From Acidobacteriota bacterium (GTDB lineage Bacteria; Actinomycetota; Acidimicrobiia; Spongiisociales; UBA11373), in NCBI GenBank assembly GCA_022571885.1, contig JACZWZ010000010.1, forward strand, positions 1-34,835: a stretch of DNA of 34,835 bases, given 5' to 3'. The notes beneath the pieces were generated by a model, which made no database searches, was not told where the DNA came from, and was given only the letters and a program-made list of their open reading frames with translations. Position numbers and translations under genes: made by a program. Every line of letters begins with the position of its first letter. Position 1 is the first letter of the stretch. Positions 4,303 through 34,689 of this stretch are shown here, piece by piece.

Positions 4303-6114
4303 ATGATTCGCTTCGGGATTTCCACGCTCCCGCCGGATGATGATGATGCCGGGTTCTTGGACCGGCTCGTCGAACGCGGCCACGGTGCGGTCGAGCTGCC
4401 GTTCGTAAAGGGGTTCCCGTGGAAAGAGAGGCGATGTCGGCAGTTCGGGGAGCTGGCTGCCGAGCGAGGGGTCGTGGTCTCCATCCACGCTCCGTATTTC
4501 GCAATCCTCACCAGCGACGATCCGGACAAGTCGAAGAAGACCCTTTCGGCTCTGGAGCACACGATGAAGCTGGGCCACGCCCTCGGGTCCCGTGTCGTCG
4601 TCGCCCACACCGGGTACGTCAAGGGGCGGACCGCCGAAGAGCTCCACGAGTTGGTGGCTGCCTCGCTCGAGGTCATCGAACCAAAGGTTCGGCATCTCGG
4701 AGTTGCTCTCGGACTCGAAGTCGGAGGCAGCGATCGCGCCTTTGGGACTCTCGGCGATATCGCTCTTATCGCCGAGCAGTTCTCCTTTGTTCACCCCGTC
4801 GTCGATTGGGCGCACCTTCATGCGGTGTCGAACGGGGCGCTGAGGACGATCGAATCATTCGCAGGTGTGATCTCCTTTCTGCGCGACAATTTCGCCGGCT
4901 GGACGCTCGATCCCTTGCACGCCCAATTCACCGACAACCAATTCGGCTCGGCAGGAGAGATCAGGCATGTTCCCTACGGCGAGGGAACCCTTCGCATCGC
5001 ACCGCTGATCGAAGCGGCGGTGGTGGCCGGACTCCGGATGACGCTGATCTCGGAGGCCCACGAGGAGTCGAGTCACGATGCGATTCAGGCGGAGATGGAG
5101 GCGGCGTTGCGCGCAGCACGTCCCGAGCCGACCGCCGACCATCGCGTCGCGGCGTCCGGCGCCATCGAATTCCCATCTCAGGTCTTTGTCGACCCGGAAG
5201 GGGACTCATTTCCTCTCGTCGGCGGTGATCGACCGCTTCGATTGTCCAACGTGGATAAGCCGTTCTTTTCGGATGGCTACACCAAGGGCGATCTGATCAC
5301 CTACTACGGCGCAGTGGCCCCGCTGCTGCTGCCCCACCTGAAGGACAGGGCCATCGTTCTGGCTCGCTTCCCGGACGGAGCCGACGGCGAGTGGTTCTAT
5401 GAGAAACAGGCTCCGACACACACTCCCGAGTGGCTTCCAACATTCCCGCTTCCATCCGACCACCGTGGCGAGGCCATCGACTACGTGACCGCTCCCGATG
5501 CCGAGTCGCTCATGTGGATCGCCAACCTCGGTGCCATCGAGATCCACCCATGGCTGAGCAGGGTCATGGCCCCAGATCGTCCCGACTTCGCCGTCTTCGA
5601 TCTGGACCCGGCCGACGGGGCGACCTGGGACCAGGTGGTGATGGTCGCCAACCTCGTCAATGTGGTCTTGGAGAGGCTGGGATTGGCAGGCTATCCGAAG
5701 ACGTCCGGGGCGACCGGCCTCCACATCTATGTCCCGATCGAACCGGAACACGAGTACCGACGGGTCCGTCGCTTCGTCGAGGCGATCGGGAGGCTCATCA
5801 CCGGAGCCGACCCGGATTTGGCGACGATGGAGTGGGACATACCAAAGCGAGCCGGCAAGGTCTTTATCGACCACAACCAGAACGTCGGCGGCAAGACGAT
5901 CGCCTCGGTGTATTCGGTGCGACCCAGGCCGGGGGCACCGGTGTCGACGCCGCTGCTGTGGTCGGAGGTAGAAACCGTAGACCCCACAGAGTTCACCATC
6001 GCCACCGTGTGGGATCGCCTGGCTCGTCACGGAGACCTGTTCGCACCGGTCCTACGCGGTGGCCAGAGCTTGGAGCGAGCCGAAGAAGCTTTGGGCATAG
6101 CCAGTAGCGAGTAA
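4303..6114 (+). CDS. Fusion of endonuclease IV-like TIM barrel and LigD-type primase-polymerase
   Basis: The 603-residue protein joins two repair modules. Residues 1-270 form an AP-endonuclease-IV/xylose-isomerase-like barrel that keeps metal-ligand positions: His62 (IHAPYF), His102 (AHTGY), Glu139 (LEVGG), Asp168 and His171 (VDWAHLHA), His206, His222 and Glu251 (ISEAH). Residues about 290-590 are the archaeo-eukaryotic-primase-type polymerase domain of bacterial LigD: DLDP with Asp433 and Asp435, SGATGLHIYVP with His474, and Asp523 in FIDHNQN, then the RPGAPVSTP segment. All three catalytic motifs are intact. Such polymerases fill gaps and add ribonucleotides during end joining, while endonuclease IV cuts at abasic sites. 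ATG 4303 was chosen because protein-like sequence begins there; the frame is open from 3730 but the extension is not protein-like. No ligase or Ku gene lies in the window. The last codons and stop fall in a heptamer array. Confidence 0.87.
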   Translation: MIRFGISTLPPDDDDAGFLDRLVERGHGAVELPFVKGFPWKERRCRQFGELAAERGVVVSIHAPYFAILTSDDPDKSKKTLSALEHTMKLGHALGSRVVVAHTGYVKGRTAEELHELVAASLEVIEPKVRHLGVALGLEVGGSDRAFGTLGDIALIAEQFSFVHPVVDWAHLHAVSNGALRTIESFAGVISFLRDNFAGWTLDPLHAQFTDNQFGSAGEIRHVPYGEGTLRIAPLIEAAVVAGLRMTLISEAHEESSHDAIQAEMEAALRAARPEPTADHRVAASGAIEFPSQVFVDPEGDSFPLVGGDRPLRLSNVDKPFFSDGYTKGDLITYYGAVAPLLLPHLKDRAIVLARFPDGADGEWFYEKQAPTHTPEWLPTFPLPSDHRGEAIDYVTAPDAESLMWIANLGAIEIHPWLSRVMAPDRPDFAVFDLDPADGATWDQVVMVANLVNVVLERLGLAGYPKTSGATGLHIYVPIEPEHEYRRVRRFVEAIGRLITGADPDLATMEWDIPKRAGKVFIDHNQNVGGKTIASVYSVRPRPGAPVSTPLLWSEVETVDPTEFTIATVWDRLARHGDLFAPVLRGGQSLERAEEALGIASSE

Positions 6115-6178
6115 CCAGTACAGGAGTCTCGTCAGGTCAACGCACCGATTACTGGAAACCGGATACTGGATACCCGCC
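6100..6178. repeat. Heptamer array H1 (inverted arms)
   Basis: The left arm, 6100-6127, is four 7-base units such as GCCAGTA and ACCAGTA. The right arm, 6144-6178, has units such as ACTGGAT and ACCGGAT, whose reverse complement again contains ATCCAGT. The left arm overlaps the last codons and the TAA stop (6112-6114) of the fusion polymerase gene. Confidence 0.75.
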
Positions 6179-9823: not shown

Positions 9824-9892
9824 TCCTTAGTGGTTAGTCATTAGGTCAGACTGCGGAGTCCTGAGTCCCATTGGCTACTGGCTACTGGCTAC
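9820..9892. repeat. Heptamer array H2 (between convergent genes)
   Basis: The left arm, 9820-9847, has units CTAGTCC, TTAGTGG and TTAGTCA. The centre repeats GGAGTCC and TGAGTCC. The right arm, 9872-9892, is three exact TGGCTAC units. The array contains the stop codons of both neighbouring convergent genes. Confidence 0.85.
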
Positions 9893-10723
9893 TTCCCCGG
9901 GCTCTGCTCCCAGCGCCACTGCTCCACCGGTGGCGCTCCAATCGCTCCACGAACCTGGATAGAGGATCGGGTCCGGCAGGCCTGCCCGAACCATGGCGAG
10001 GGCGTTGTGGCATGCGGTCACGCCGCTGCCGCAGTAGACAACCGTGTCTCGATCGGCATCGACTCCCAGACGGGCGAATCTCTCCCGCAGCTGCTCGGCG
10101 CCGAGGAAGGTCTCGTCCTCGGCCAAGTTGTCCAGCATCGAGGCGCTCAGCGCAGTCGGGATGTGTCCTGCCACCGGATCGATCGGCTCCTCCTCGCCTC
10201 GGTACCGCGCCGGTTCCCGGGCGTCGAGCAGTGTCACCGCCCCCAAGCGGCTGCTCAGTTCATCCCGATCGAGTTGCCGAGTGGCCGACCGCCGAACGGT
10301 CATCGTTGCCGGGTCGTGAGTCGGCAGGTCGGTCTCGATGGCTTGGCCGGCGGATTGCCAGGCGGCGATGCCACCGTCGAGTACACGGACACCGTCGTGT
10401 CCGATGTCGCGCAACATCCACCAAAGGCGGGCAGCGGTTGCTCCGCCACGGTCGTCGTAGGCGACGATCAGCTGCTCTTGACCGAATCCGATCCCTTCCA
10501 TCGTCGCGGCGAAGGCCTGTCGCGTCGGAAGCGGGTGTCGACCGGGGCCGTTGGAGTCGCTGAGATGCACCTCCAGGTTCACGTATACGGCTTCCGGTAT
10601 GTGGCCGGCGTGATAGGCAAAATGCCCGTGTGTGGGCTGGTCGAGATACCACCGCACGTCGGCGATTCCGATCGGGCCGTCGTAGGCGATCAGCTCATCG
10701 ACGCTGATTATCGGGTCGGTCAT
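9875..10723 (-). CDS. Two-domain sulfurtransferase (thiosulfate / 3-mercaptopyruvate)
   Basis: The 282-residue protein has two rhodanese domains. The N-terminal one is inactive (Asp90-Asp91 where a Cys would stand), and the C-terminal one has the active-site loop YCGSGVTA with Cys231. CGSGVT is typical of 3-mercaptopyruvate and related sulfurtransferases, which pass sulfane sulfur to cyanide or thiols in the cytoplasm. The domain boundary is near residue 145. ATG 10723 was chosen because its ATGA overlaps the stop of the upstream gene; the longer open frame to 11146 is shadow. The C-terminus GEVASSQ and the TAG stop are encoded by array H2, so the last residues may have been altered by the array. 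Confidence 0.88.
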   Translation of the reverse strand: MTDPIISVDELIAYDGPIGIADVRWYLDQPTHGHFAYHAGHIPEAVYVNLEVHLSDSNGPGRHPLPTRQAFAATMEGIGFGQEQLIVAYDDRGGATAARLWWMLRDIGHDGVRVLDGGIAAWQSAGQAIETDLPTHDPATMTVRRSATRQLDRDELSSRLGAVTLLDAREPARYRGEEEPIDPVAGHIPTALSASMLDNLAEDETFLGAEQLRERFARLGVDADRDTVVYCGSGVTACHNALAMVRAGLPDPILYPGSWSDWSATGGAVALGAEPGEVASSQ

Positions 10724-14344: not shown

Positions 14345-14414
14345 GGTTAGGAGTTAGGCGTTAGGAAGCGCCCATTCTACCTAATACCTAACACCTAATC
14401 CCTAACACCTAGAT
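14345..14414. repeat. Heptamer array H5, clean inverted arms
   Basis: The left arm, 14345-14365, is GGTTAGG, AGTTAGG, CGTTAGG. The right arm, 14380-14414, is five units of the CCTAATA/CCTAACA type, the complement of the left. A 14-base unpaired centre (14366-14379) separates them. This is the clearest palindromic case. Confidence 0.9.
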
Positions 14415-22181: not shown

Positions 22182-24716
22182 ATGTTCAAGATTGCTCTCA
22201 GGAGCGTCCTGCTACACAAGTTGCGACTGACGCTCACGGCGGTGGCGATTGTGCTCGGGGTTGCCTTCGTGTCGGGGACATTTGTGTTCACCGACAGCAT
22301 CAAGGCCTCGTTCGATGATCTCTTCTCCGACGTCAATGCACAGGTCGACTTCTTCGTGAGGGGTACCTCCGAGTTTGGATCGACCGCGGCCACCTTGGAT
22401 GAGTCGATCGTCGAAGCGGTTCGTGCGGTAGACGGACTCGAGACCGTCGTCCCCTCCGTGGACGGAATCGCCCAACTCATCGACAAGGAAGGTGAACCGA
22501 TTGGAGGAGCCGGGCCACCGACTCTCGGGTTCTCGTACCTCCCCGAGGGAGAGGGAATCTCCCCGATCGATGTGCGCCAGGGAGATAGTTGGCCCACCGA
22601 ACCGGGCCAGGTTGTCATCGACACGTTTGCCGCTGAGGCGAACGACCTCAGTGTGGGCGATGTCATCGACATAATTACCCCGGTCGGTGTTGAGCCCTTC
22701 GAGATCGTGGGCATCGCGACCTTCGGCGACGCCGACAACCTGCTGGGGGCCACCCTGGCCGTGTTCCAGTTCGAAGAGGCTCAGCGGATCTTCGACATGG
22801 AGGGCCAGGTTTCATCGATCTCGCTGACGGCCGTCGACCGGGTCGACAAGCTGCTGTTGCAGGCGTCGATCGCCGACCTGTTGCCCTCTCAAGTCGAGAT
22901 TGTCACCGGTGCTGACCAGACAGATGACGATCTGAGCGAAATCGACGAGGGGATTGGGTTCATCACCACGATCCTGCTCGTGATCGCCGGCGTGGCGGTG
23001 TTTGTCGGAGCATTCATCATCCAGAACACGTTCCGGATCATCGTGGCCCAGCGGACCAGAGAACTGGCGATGCTTCGCGCCGTAGGGGCCACCGGGCGTC
23101 AGGTGACCTTCATGGTTGGGATCGAAGCGCTGGTGGTGGCCGTGGTCGCCTCGGTGATCGGAATCGGAGTCGGCGTCCTGTTTGCAGTCGGCATCAAGGG
23201 TGCATTCACTGCCTTCGGCTTTGGCTTCCCCGGCGGACCTCTCACAATCAAGGCGCGGACGATCGTCGTCGGCATGGCGGTCGGTGTTGTGGTGACCATG
23301 ATTTCGGCGCTGCTTCCGGCGCGGAAGGCGTCGAAGATCCCACCGATTGCGGCTCTGCGGGATATTGACACCAGTGCTCGGGACCTGTCGCGGAGGCTGA
23401 CTGCCGGCATCATCGTCACCGGTCTCGGAGTGGCGCTGTTGGCCGTGGGGTTGGTGCTCGATCTCGAGAATGCCATCTCCTTTGTGGGCTTTGGGGCGCT
23501 GCTGACATTCGTCGGGGTATCGGTCCTTGCTCCGCTGTTTGCCAGGACCTTTGCTCGAACCGCCGGCAGGCCACTGCCTCGCTTCGCCGGCATCGTCGGA
23601 CGACTGGCTCAGGAGAACGTGATGCGCAAGCCACGTCGCACCGCGGCAACTGCGTCGTCGCTGATGATCGGGGTGGCTCTGGTCAGTGTGATCGCCGTGT
23701 TCTCCGCCTCGGCCAAGTCGGGCGTGGCCGCAGTCTTTGAGGATGACTTCACGACTGACTTTCAGGTTGCTCTCGACGGATTCAGCGACCCTCGGTTCAC
23801 CGGCTTGTCGCCGGCGCTGACGGACGATTTGAGACAGCTGGATGAGCTGTCGGTAGTCGCCCGGTTGCGGATTGGGGAGTACCGGATGACCGACGAGACT
23901 GCCGAGAAGTTCCTGCTGGGCGTGGATGGCGGAATCGAACAGGTGGTGAGGCTCGAGATCGTCGACGGATCTATCGACCGCTTCACCGATGGCTCTGCTC
24001 TGCTCTTCGAGGACGAAGCGAACCGGCTCGGCCTCGGTGCCGGAGACTCGATGACGATCGAAGTGCCATCCGGAGCCACCGTACAGCTCGAGATTGCTGC
24101 CGTTTTTGCCGGTGATGCGCTGGAAGCGCGGCTCCTGGTGACCGTGCCGACCTACGAGGAGCACATCACATTCCGGCTCGATCGGTTCGTCCTCGCTCTC
24201 AAGGCAGATGATGTCTCGGAGGCTGAAGCTCGAGCGGCAGTAGACGGGGTGGCTGAGTCCTACCCGAACGCCAAGGTGACCAACACCGAGGAGCTCATCG
24301 GCGACATAGAGCAGCAGATCGACAACCTGCTGAACCTGCTGGTGGTGCTGCTCGGCTTTGCGATCATCATCGCTCTGCTCGGCATCGTGAACACGCTGGT
24401 GCTGTCCGTGTCGGAGCGAAAGCGCGAGATCGGGTTGCTGCGGGCTATCGGGACATCTCGCAAACAGGTCAAGCAGATGATCCGATGGGAGTCGCTGCTG
24501 ATCGCCGTCTTCGGCGGTGTGTTGGGTCTGGTCGTGGGCACCGCCCTGGGGGTCGCCACCGTCACCGCGGTGGGCCGCGGCCTCAAGCTCACCATCCCGG
24601 GCGGCCAACTGATCATCTACCTGGTCGCCGCTGGCGTTGGTGGGATGATTGCGGCGGTTCCTCCGTCACGAGCCGCAGCCAAGACGAATGTGCTGGAGGC
24701 GATCGGATACGAGTAG
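22182..24716 (+). CDS. FtsX/MacB-family ABC permease, double FtsX domain
   Basis: The 844-residue membrane protein has a MacB-like periplasmic region after the first helix (about 40-240) and a first FtsX domain with three helices (about 265-390; RTRELAMLRAVGATGRQV). Two further helices, a second external region (about 510-680) and a second FtsX domain (SERKREIGLLRAIGTSRKQ) follow. About ten helices in all is usual for actinobacterial members acting in lipoprotein, lipid or peptide handling at the cell surface. It forms a unit with the LolD-like ATPase. The TAG stop at 24714-24716 touches array H9 directly. Confidence 0.9.
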   Translation: MFKIALRSVLLHKLRLTLTAVAIVLGVAFVSGTFVFTDSIKASFDDLFSDVNAQVDFFVRGTSEFGSTAATLDESIVEAVRAVDGLETVVPSVDGIAQLIDKEGEPIGGAGPPTLGFSYLPEGEGISPIDVRQGDSWPTEPGQVVIDTFAAEANDLSVGDVIDIITPVGVEPFEIVGIATFGDADNLLGATLAVFQFEEAQRIFDMEGQVSSISLTAVDRVDKLLLQASIADLLPSQVEIVTGADQTDDDLSEIDEGIGFITTILLVIAGVAVFVGAFIIQNTFRIIVAQRTRELAMLRAVGATGRQVTFMVGIEALVVAVVASVIGIGVGVLFAVGIKGAFTAFGFGFPGGPLTIKARTIVVGMAVGVVVTMISALLPARKASKIPPIAALRDIDTSARDLSRRLTAGIIVTGLGVALLAVGLVLDLENAISFVGFGALLTFVGVSVLAPLFARTFARTAGRPLPRFAGIVGRLAQENVMRKPRRTAATASSLMIGVALVSVIAVFSASAKSGVAAVFEDDFTTDFQVALDGFSDPRFTGLSPALTDDLRQLDELSVVARLRIGEYRMTDETAEKFLLGVDGGIEQVVRLEIVDGSIDRFTDGSALLFEDEANRLGLGAGDSMTIEVPSGATVQLEIAAVFAGDALEARLLVTVPTYEEHITFRLDRFVLALKADDVSEAEARAAVDGVAESYPNAKVTNTEELIGDIEQQIDNLLNLLVVLLGFAIIIALLGIVNTLVLSVSERKREIGLLRAIGTSRKQVKQMIRWESLLIAVFGGVLGLVVGTALGVATVTAVGRGLKLTIPGGQLIIYLVAAGVGGMIAAVPPSRAAAKTNVLEAIGYE

Positions 24717-24751
24717 GAGTACTGAGTAGTCAGCTATCAGTAGTCAGTACT
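24717..24751. repeat. Heptamer array H9, left terminus of the four-helix-bundle element
   Basis: Five consecutive 7-base units (GAGTACT, GAGTAGT, CAGCTAT, CAGTAGT, CAGTACT) begin at the base after the FtsX-gene stop. In reverse orientation the same word family forms array H10 at the other end of the enclosed gene. The tail of the four-helix-bundle reading frame runs into it. Confidence 0.9.
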
Positions 24752-25091
24752 CGACGGCGAAGAGCAATGAGCATGGCCCGGATTTCGCCGCACTCCTGCT
24801 GGAGATTGCTTGCGGTTCGGCCGAGCAGCAGGCTGAGATCTGAAGCCAGTAGTAGCTCGTACTCCAATTCGGCCGTCGACGCGATAGCGTTGTCGAGGAA
24901 GCGGGCGTAATCGGGTCGCGTACGACGGCTGCTCCCTCCGCGATGTTCGTTTGGATGCCGACGGCTGCACGACGGGTCTGCGACTGGAGTCCATAGACCT
25001 CGGCTTTGGGGTAGCCAGCAGTGGCGTCATGCACAGAGCGGGTCAGCCGATGGGCGCGATTCCAGACACGCAGTTCTCGGAACGGACGCAC
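24730..25091 (-). pseudogene. Four-helix-bundle protein (S23/IVP, Avd-like fold), frameshifted
   Basis: From GTG 25091 the frame reads MRPFRELRVWNRAHRLTRSV, then YGLQSQTRRAAVGIQTNIAEG, the unmistakable first half of the four-helix-bundle family found as an intervening-sequence protein in 23S rRNA genes and, in related form, as the Avd accessory of diversity-generating retroelements. After GAA at about 24925 the family sequence continues in another frame (PDYARFLDNAIAS, then AELEYELLLASDL) to TGA at 24730-24732. A single lost base near 24921-24928 explains the break. Restored, it has about 120 residues, the usual length. Either the gene is dead or the assembly has an indel. Inverted heptamer arrays flank it on both sides. 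Known members are small, basic and thought to bind nucleic acid or protein. Confidence 0.85.
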
Positions 25092-25129
25092 TCAAACACT
25101 GTGAGATCAATCGAGGTCTCCGACAAGGT

Positions 25130-25164
25130 CTTGACTGAGTACTTAATACTGAGTACTGAATACT
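25130..25164. repeat. Heptamer array H10, right terminus of the four-helix-bundle element
   Basis: Five 7-base units (CTTGACT, GAGTACT, TAATACT, GAGTACT, GAATACT) end one base before the minus-strand stop codon of the sulfotransferase-like gene. Read on the minus strand, the array begins GAGTATT after TAG, mirroring the GAGTACT after TAG at the left end. Confidence 0.9.
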
Positions 25165-25165
25165 C

Positions 25166-25885
25166 CTAGATCGCCCACTCTTTCAATCGTTCGAACAATG
25201 GCAGGCACTCGGTCAGCAGCGGCTGCAGGTGGGCCGGGACTGGTTCGTCCTTCTCCCGGTAAGCGGCGAAACCGGTAGATCGATGCACGTTGTCGTACCA
25301 GTGGGGTGCCCACACGCCGTCTTCGGGCTTTGGTCCTTCATCCCAGCTGAGCATCGCCGGATCCCAATCGAGGCCGAGGCGCTTGCACACGGTCGTCAGA
25401 ACCCCTTCTGGATCGAGCAGTAGGCGCTTCGACTCGATGACGATCGGGGAGTCGCCCGACTCGAGGATTCGGTCCAGCATCGACACTTGCATCGGGAGGC
25501 CGGTGCCCTCGACCGTCGGGTTCGGGACCTGATTGATCAGCGACAAAAGCATCTGGCGTGGATCGCGGGTCAGGAGGATGTTCTCCATCTGTCCGAGGAA
25601 CGACGTGTCGAGCTCGATGAGGTGATGGGCCATGTGCTTGAAGAACCTCACCGGTGTCTCTGCGGGACCCAGCAGCAGAGTGCGTACCACCGATTCGCCG
25701 TCGGTGTCTTGGGACCTGATGACGTCCTGGAGGGCCGGGTGTTCAACGCCGGCGCGGCATAAGTAGTGGGCGTAAAGGGGTTCGTCGACAACACTGGTGT
25801 CGCTCCGTTCACGGAAGGCGTACATGACGGCGGTCGAGACGTTGCGTGGTCCCGACCAGAGGTTGATCCGCTTGACGTCATCCAT
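25166..25885 (-). CDS. Sulfotransferase-like P-loop protein coupled to the aminotransferase
   Basis: The 239-residue protein begins with a PAPS-binding-like loop INLWSGPRNVSTAVMYAF and has a ILLTRDPRQMLLSL strand resembling the 3'-phosphate contact of sulfotransferases, followed by helical C-terminal sequence. True sulfotransferase activity is unproven for this branch; many entries carry misleading branched-chain-aminotransferase names because of fusions or gene neighbourhood. ATG 25885 overlaps the upstream aminotransferase stop by eight bases, so the two are co-translated. The stop TAG borders array H10. Confidence 0.8.
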   Translation of the reverse strand: MDDVKRINLWSGPRNVSTAVMYAFRERSDTSVVDEPLYAHYLCRAGVEHPALQDVIRSQDTDGESVVRTLLLGPAETPVRFFKHMAHHLIELDTSFLGQMENILLTRDPRQMLLSLINQVPNPTVEGTGLPMQVSMLDRILESGDSPIVIESKRLLLDPEGVLTTVCKRLGLDWDPAMLSWDEGPKPEDGVWAPHWYDNVHRSTGFAAYREKDEPVPAHLQPLLTECLPLFERLKEWAI

Positions 25886-30772: not shown

Positions 30773-30800
30773 AGGAGTCTCCAGTCTCCAGTCTGGAACC
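30773..30800. repeat. Heptamer array H11
   Basis: Four 7-base units AGGAGTC, TCCAGTC, TCCAGTC and TGGAACC lie in the divergent gap between the cyclase and SRAP genes. Confidence 0.75.
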
Positions 30801-34640: not shown

Positions 34641-34689
34641 TAGTCGCTAGTCGTTAGCGATTAGCAAATAGAAAATAGCAAATAGCAAG
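34641..34689. repeat. Heptamer array H12, seven units
   Basis: Seven consecutive units all begin TAG: TAGTCGC, TAGTCGT, TAGCGAT, TAGCAAA, TAGAAAA, TAGCAAA, TAGCAAG. It starts four bases after the antiporter stop. The gradual drift from unit to unit shows stepwise copying with change. No inverted second arm was found before element B2 begins. Confidence 0.92.

Follow-up and report, generated by a model that had tools for sequence, protein, structure and literature searches.

What is a small four-helix-bundle gene doing between two inverted arrays of seven-letter repeats? The question is raised by positions 24714-25168 of the contig JACZWZ010000010.1 (C88), whose whole length of 34,835 nucleotides is the window analysed here and which belongs to a draft genome (G000) of 2.79 Mb in 228 contigs. 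Our answer, to which we give a probability of roughly three in four, is that the locus represents a minimal selfish element in decay, in which a four-helix-bundle (FHB) protein recognises the repeat word at its own ends and seeds gene-less arrays of that word. The element is about 430-450 bp long and lies at a gene boundary; it has a single FHB gene, preceded by a leader of some dozens of bases, between an array and its inverted counterpart. Across phyla, most members combine the gene with the inverted arrays, and some otherwise corresponding sites hold the complete unit where others lack it. Both ends of one element have a common word, which varies from element to element in step with the protein lineage. 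The words recur without a gene in the same genome, and genomes that lack an FHB gene are almost wholly without arrays. We infer that the FHB protein itself does the moving.

In the window, the gene belongs to the PF05635/TIGR02436 family (FHB, S23) and lies on the minus strand between inverted period-7 arrays of the GAGTACT family. The array on its 3' side (24717-24752), GAGTACTGAGTAGTCAGCTATCAGTAGTCAGTACTC, has an imperfect period of 7, was recognised from its sequence and its word match to the other array, and follows directly on the TAG stop codon of the left neighbour (24714-24716). The array on the 5' side (25134-25165) reads GAGTATTCAGTACTCAGTATTAAGTACTCAGT on the minus strand, runs opposite to the first and touches the TAG of the right neighbour (25168-25166); read on the minus strand, this TAG is followed by GAGTATTCAGTACTC... 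through the array at 25165-25134. Tandem Repeats Finder (TRF) reports period 7 at 24725-24749 and period 7/14 at 25134-25164. The words of the two sides, AGTATTC and GAGTACT, agree in six of seven letters after reverse complementation. A first-pass annotation, made from the letters alone, had read both ends as TAG followed by GAGTAYT, the TAGs being the stops of convergent neighbours, with one word family in opposite orientation around the gene; the letters and coordinates confirm this. Its comparison with terminal inverted repeats holds for the inversion of the ends but not for their content, since there is no fixed repeat as in a classical transposon or insertion sequence, only arrays whose word differs from copy to copy.

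The same annotation had named the four-helix-bundle gene correctly, as the match to PF05635 (23S_rRNA_IVP) demonstrates, but it overlooked a frameshift. The N-terminal half (24927-25091, minus strand) starts with GTG at 25091 and covers model positions 1-51, with the PF05635 match at 24927-25079 (E 3.6e-13, 50.9 bits), and the C-terminal half (24766-24936, minus strand) covers model positions 49-105 (E 8e-9, 36.9 bits). A profile search, a Pfam scan and the open reading frame (ORF) at 25091-24744 place the two halves in different frames, with the shift near 24930. The window copy is either a decayed relic or the victim of a draft error at the frameshift. Its two arrays are also among the weaker ones, with scores of 9 and 6. 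The case is carried by the FHB family and not by the window copy.

Three other copies of the genome, on other contigs, have a single intact reading frame and score 106-118 bits with PF05635 (cut-off 33.8) and 108-114 bits with TIGR02436 (cut-off 24). All four FHB loci of the genome lie between inverted period-7 arrays with four different words, those of the intact copies being AGTCNCC for L001, CCGATGC/GACACCC for L002 and TTAGGNA for L003. Among related genomes, PF05635 was found in 25 of 59, with 0-9 matches per genome; frameshifted copies are common, and several still have their arrays. Of 50 FHB loci from these relatives, the 48 with enough flanking sequence were counted, an array being called at a lag-7 score of at least 11 within 220 bp of the gene. 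Arrays stood on both sides in 26 of the 48 and on at least one side in 38, compared with 0 of 3000 and 3.6%, respectively, for random positions in the same loci. Period 7 scored in 65 of 100 flanks and periods 4-6 and 8-12 in 0-1 of 100, which rules out a detector artefact from other repeat periods in the related genomes. The inverted words of the two sides agree at 5.69 of 7 letters, against 3.63 (standard deviation 0.13) when pairs are shuffled between loci. In the FHB-positive genomes, arrays with any word flanked 14 of 404 other gene-like ORFs on both sides, and matching inverted words flanked 3 of the 404 as opposed to 21 of the 48 FHB loci (Fisher p = 5e-20). The enrichment that the first-pass annotation had named as a check is thus present, and it recurs across phyla.

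The unit is also mobile, as had been suspected from the window alone. In the sole congener (G001), the same two convergent genes, encoding the permease and the sulfotransferase-like protein that border the window element, have their TAG codons 35 bp apart and hold no element, which is the empty site that the annotation had proposed to look for. In G009, the matching site has gene-less arrays of another word. A conserved operon of Nostoc plasmids provides near-exact pairs of empty and filled sites: at the junction between genes C and D, five plasmids have just 3 bp and three have an FHB element; at D|E, the next junction, one plasmid has a different FHB gene with a different word; and at B|C, gene-less arrays are present in a number of plasmids. 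In Nostoc sp. C052, the filled and the empty site occur on separate plasmids. In two filled plasmids the FHB ORF is identical at 365 of 366 positions (about 99.7%), whereas genes C and D differ by 7.5 and 8.3%, respectively, and the mismatches break off at the element boundaries. A gene-less inverted-array element of 181 bp lies cleanly inside an FHB ORF (L249:1315-1495), the rest of which matches intact copies at 98-99% identity. Three genomes have FHB genes at the site of L001 that are not mutual closest relatives, which points to independent insertions.

The same data bear on the idea of an ordinary, vertically inherited gene with a cellular function, flanked by transcription terminators or regulatory stems. 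Arrays do stand beside stop codons, often between convergent genes, and are able to pair as a stem. Yet the gene is patchily distributed (25 of 59 genomes, 0-9 copies), its sites differ between genomes and empty sites exist. A near-identical element sits in diverged flanks in Nostoc, whose plasmids are polymorphic for its presence, and insertions split operons such as accB/accC and cas6/cas4. We regard a vertically inherited cellular gene as highly improbable.

Two further observations concern these sites. In G013, the place between the two convergent genes that border the window element is taken by an unrelated, array-free gene of about 1 kb (L057). In the Nostoc operon, the B|C arrays (L242, L244, L245, L247 and L249) extend over the terminal part of gene B, which seems to gain a new C-terminus and stop codon from them.

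Gene-less arrays were counted in stretches sampled from 50 genomes, about 1.4 Mb in total, with the neighbourhood of any FHB gene located there excluded, and a genome was called FHB-negative if its draft had no PF05635 match; the densities rest on these samples. There were 123 solo arrays in 784 kb from 23 FHB-positive genomes and a single one in 605 kb from 27 FHB-negative genomes (Mann-Whitney p = 1.6e-6), and arrays of periods 5, 6, 8 and 9 showed no difference between the two groups. Because this density test, like the expectation-maximisation analysis of words and the Mantel test described below, counts related loci as separate, its p-value is generous, and the effect sizes and within-genus contrasts are safer. 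Those contrasts are large: the window genome has 20.8 arrays per 100 kb and its congener G001 has 1.0, and three members of another genus (G016, G030 and G036) have 10-22 as against 0 in G023. Of 114 solo arrays, 50 agree in at least six letters with an FHB word of their own genome, where 15% would be expected from the words of other genomes. The proposal that the other arrays are solo, non-autonomous relics is supported by this match and by their near absence from FHB-negative genomes. As a side observation, G006 has a second abundant heptamer family, CTCAACG/GCGTTGA, without a matching FHB copy in the draft (L106, L107); its FHB gene is either missing or lost.

Could the arrays instead come first, made by host strand slippage or another process, with FHB genes merely inserting into them or surviving best there? 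Many arrays have no gene, and arrays and FHB genes are both located at gene boundaries, as this explanation would expect. However, FHB-negative genomes of the same genus or order are almost array-free (1 array per 605 kb), the flanking arrays are inverted and not direct halves of one split array, and the empty Nostoc sites have no array at the insertion point. Such a target preference therefore seems quite unlikely to us.

A scan of named genomes with two-sequence alignment yielded 78 FHB loci from about 15 phyla, most of them with inverted period-7 arrays. FHB genes on cyanobacterial plasmids are flanked by the known cyanobacterial type of heptamer, such as AGTAGGG/TACTCCC in Nostoc edaphicum, and arrays of AGTAGGG and TCAGGAG occur at cyanobacterial FHB loci. 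In some lineages (Flavobacterium, Pedobacter, a betaproteobacterium and a Prevotella-like lineage) the period is 8, with the arrays again inverted, and in one FHB lineage it is 6. FHB copies of period 7 and of period 8 coexist in one betaproteobacterial genome, so that the period is a property of the element rather than of its host. The more alike two FHB proteins are, the more alike their words tend to be (Mantel r = 0.33; highest permuted value 0.13). Among protein pairs from different hosts, at least six of seven letters are common in 47% of pairs with 60% identity or more and in 0-3% of pairs below 55%. A TCAGC-type word is common to FHB proteins of 60-70% identity from Desulfobacterota, Chloroflexota, Planctomycetota, Acidobacteriota and Omnitrophota. 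Read from the outside towards the element, the words have a weak TYAG core of 3.78 bits, compared with 2.89 for shuffled words and 3.26 for a random strand.

If the protein did not read the word, this dependence of word and period on protein lineage would be difficult to account for, since tandem arrays would then be expected to drift apart well before their proteins have diverged to 60-70% identity. It also bears on the possibility that the FHB gene is a passenger, i.e., that gene and arrays form one mobile unit moved by some other factor (a host nuclease, the replication or repair machinery, or an unrecognised transposase), the FHB protein having an RNA-protecting or regulatory role. In favour of a passenger, no catalytic motif is known in the FHB family, several frameshifted copies retain their arrays, and the protein of the Coxiella rRNA intervening sequence (IVS) is reported as not synthesised in vivo (PMC4990558). 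Against it, word and period track the FHB protein and not the host, and arrays vanish from genomes without an FHB gene. Two candidate helpers do not co-occur with the family either: RAYT/Y1 transposases (PF01797) were found in 0 of the 59 related genomes, with 5 of 14 control genomes positive, and reverse transcriptases in 7 of 59, uncorrelated with FHB. The former count excludes a RAYT/Y1 origin of the arrays. Overall, a passenger gene appears unlikely, and the FHB protein as reader of its own word remains the explanation that we prefer.

Some further loci are of interest in themselves. In a gammaproteobacterium, an FHB element with GGGAATC arrays at both ends and a frameshifted FHB gene lies between accB and accC (L288, 1440-1935). 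More GGGNATC arrays occur in the same genome and none in 14 other genomes. This FHB protein is the closest relative that we found of the crystallised Xanthomonas protein XCC0516 (60% identity), and we predict from this one relative that XCC0516 may be linked to GGGAATC arrays. CRISPR operons on cyanobacterial plasmids are interrupted by FHB elements, in Pseudanabaena between cas6 and cas4 (L119:2989-3348) and in Picosynechococcus between cas10 and cmr3 (L121:2980-3336). The arrays with period 8, and one with period 6, are those of L143, L171, L187, L157, L158, L176 and L185. No relatives of the FHB group were found in viral contigs, and phages gave one weak FHB match. An Rfam search of 20 array-poor FHB loci from other phyla found no rRNA, the sole match being a tRNA.

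The element shares features with several known systems. The IVSs with an S23 ORF in Coxiella and Leptospira are 428-444 nt long, contain one ORF, end in a complementary stem, occur sporadically and have been termed selfish or possibly mobile (PMC4990558). The FHB element has the same protein family, nearly the same size, a single ORF, a terminal stem and a sporadic distribution, and in the predicted single-strand fold its terminal arrays pair as a closing stem (z = -2.0 and -3.8). It differs in that IVSs lie in rRNA helices, have a near-perfect stem of 28 bp as published and are linked to no genome-wide repeat family, whereas FHB elements end in tandem arrays and the window element has a permease gene on one side and a sulfotransferase-like gene on the other. 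REP/REPIN sequences and their RAYTs likewise combine one gene with many gene-less inverted repeats at gene ends, matched in word to the gene of their own genome, and the 50 of 114 solo arrays noted above behave in trans in the same way. But RAYTs are HUH (Y1) transposases and REPs are palindromes, while the arrays of FHB elements are tandem heptamers and FHB genes are multi-copy with empty sites. FHB elements work like REP/RAYT systems and look like IVSs, but they lack what defines each of these, the Y1 transposase of the former and the rRNA location of the latter.

A third likeness is to the intergenic heptamer repeats, namely STRR of cyanobacteria, TAACTGA of Beggiatoa and cyanobacteria, GGGAATC of Xanthomonas and GGGGA(C/T)T of Nostoc. 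These, too, consist of 7-nt units repeated in tandem in intergenic DNA, frequently close to stop codons, and 7-nt tandem units are dispersed outside genes in FHB-positive genomes as well. Rehm et al. reported that GGGAATC is highly enriched in xanthomonads, with 70-75 inverted pairs per Xanthomonas genome, and found generally no association of heptamers with mobile elements (PMC4692102). For TAACTGA, a mobile repeat-binding protein has been speculated (PMC4679880). In the publications that we consulted, these repeats have no linked gene, whereas the FHB genes described here bear such words at both ends, GGGAATC at L288 being one case. We found no report in the openly accessible literature of FHB genes linked to heptamer arrays.

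Finally, the first-pass annotation had hinted at a retroelement role through Avd, the accessory protein of diversity-generating retroelements. An Avd-like FHB protein would write or diversify the arrays together with a reverse transcriptase. Avd has a related fold, is a nucleic-acid partner protein and is held to be homologous in fold to PF05635 (PMC10053308). The FHB copies match Avd models below cut-off (NF033474, 21-24 bits against 80, E 3e-4 and 4e-5; PF22296, 14-24 bits against 40, E 5e-5 for one copy). However, Avd acts with a reverse transcriptase, and PF00078 was not found in the window genome, whose assembly lacks about 8%, nor in most FHB-positive relatives; a template/variable repeat pair was not seen either. 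Dependence on a reverse transcriptase is therefore rejected for this genome, and a role as retroelement accessory is the least probable of the explanations considered.

How, then, might an FHB protein spread its word? It is the only gene in an element that needs at least a word-specific recogniser, and so we propose that it is the recogniser. The crystallised relatives 2gsc and 2rld have five chains, and a five-bundle assembly of the family is cited in PMC10053308. An FHB pentamer would bind its own word in the form of single-stranded DNA, of RNA or of a hairpin into which the paired arrays fold. Such binding could drive insertion of the element at exposed single strands near gene ends, and the same binding in trans may spread the gene-less array pairs. 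Cutting and joining are probably done by host enzymes. The protein would fix the unit length and core letters, and arrays would be homogenised towards its word, which would explain both the matched ends and the turnover of words in place. The 23S rRNA IVSs may be elements of the same kind that landed in rRNA.

Several points weigh against this proposal. We know of no catalytic site in the FHB protein. About one fifth of FHB loci have no clear array within 220 bp, and 5 of 22 adequately sampled FHB-positive genomes have no solo arrays. A single constant target-site duplication was not found in the Nostoc junctions; at one clean junction the duplication is at most 1 bp, and another has a direct repeat of 5-6 bp that also fits the array register. 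The near-identical Nostoc element is at the same site in all three plasmids, so that homing or local recombination would describe it as well as free transposition does; elsewhere in the plasmid collection, copies of the Nostoc elements were not found. At the site of L003, orthologous FHB genes of four genera (L003, L041, L037 and L026) form a clade, with a support of only 0.83, and their words differ, which suggests long residence with both arrays turning over in step; the copy of the window genome is in opposite orientation there, as though recombination between its inverted arrays had turned it round. The Coxiella protein mentioned above, apparently not made in vivo, belongs here as well.

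The window has further features around the element. Its left neighbour is an FtsX/MacB-type ABC permease gene (22182-24716, plus strand) and its right neighbour a convergent gene for a sulfotransferase-like protein (25166-25885, minus strand; Pfam Sulfotransfer_5), both identified with Pfam and each abutting the element with its TAG stop. Elsewhere, the lag-7 scan found a non-autonomous inverted pair without a gene at 14346-14405, formed by GTTAGGA (14346-14365) and TACCTAA (14378-14405), with the TTAGG word of the intact copy L003. A candidate pair of the same kind at 6098-6173, formed by TAGCCAG (6098-6120) and ACTGGAT (6151-6173), has low scores in the lag-7 scan and TRF. Solo arrays are TGGCTAC at 9872-9893 and ATAGCAA at 34654-34688, both found with TRF and the lag-7 scan, and AGTCTCC at 30776-30794, found with TRF, whose word is that of the intact copy L001.

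Beyond this locus, we consider it rather probable that the elements form a previously unrecognised, two-component class of selfish DNA. In this class, a pentameric FHB protein would set how long the repeat unit is (7 letters, in some lineages 8 or 6) and which letters form its core, the inverted pair of arrays would form the ends of the element, and gene-less arrays would be seeded from it, making it the source of heptamer repeats such as STRR, TAACTGA and GGGAATC and of the rRNA IVSs. If this is true, the intergenic heptamer repeats, so far reported case by case in cyanobacteria, Beggiatoa and xanthomonads with no maker assigned, would have a source, and a role would fall to the four helix bundle protein (S23), which is among the most frequent of the "hypothetical" small proteins. 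It would represent a new way to make and spread repeats, without a recognisable transposase and with end arrays matched to the element's own protein, and it would account for what the rRNA IVSs are.

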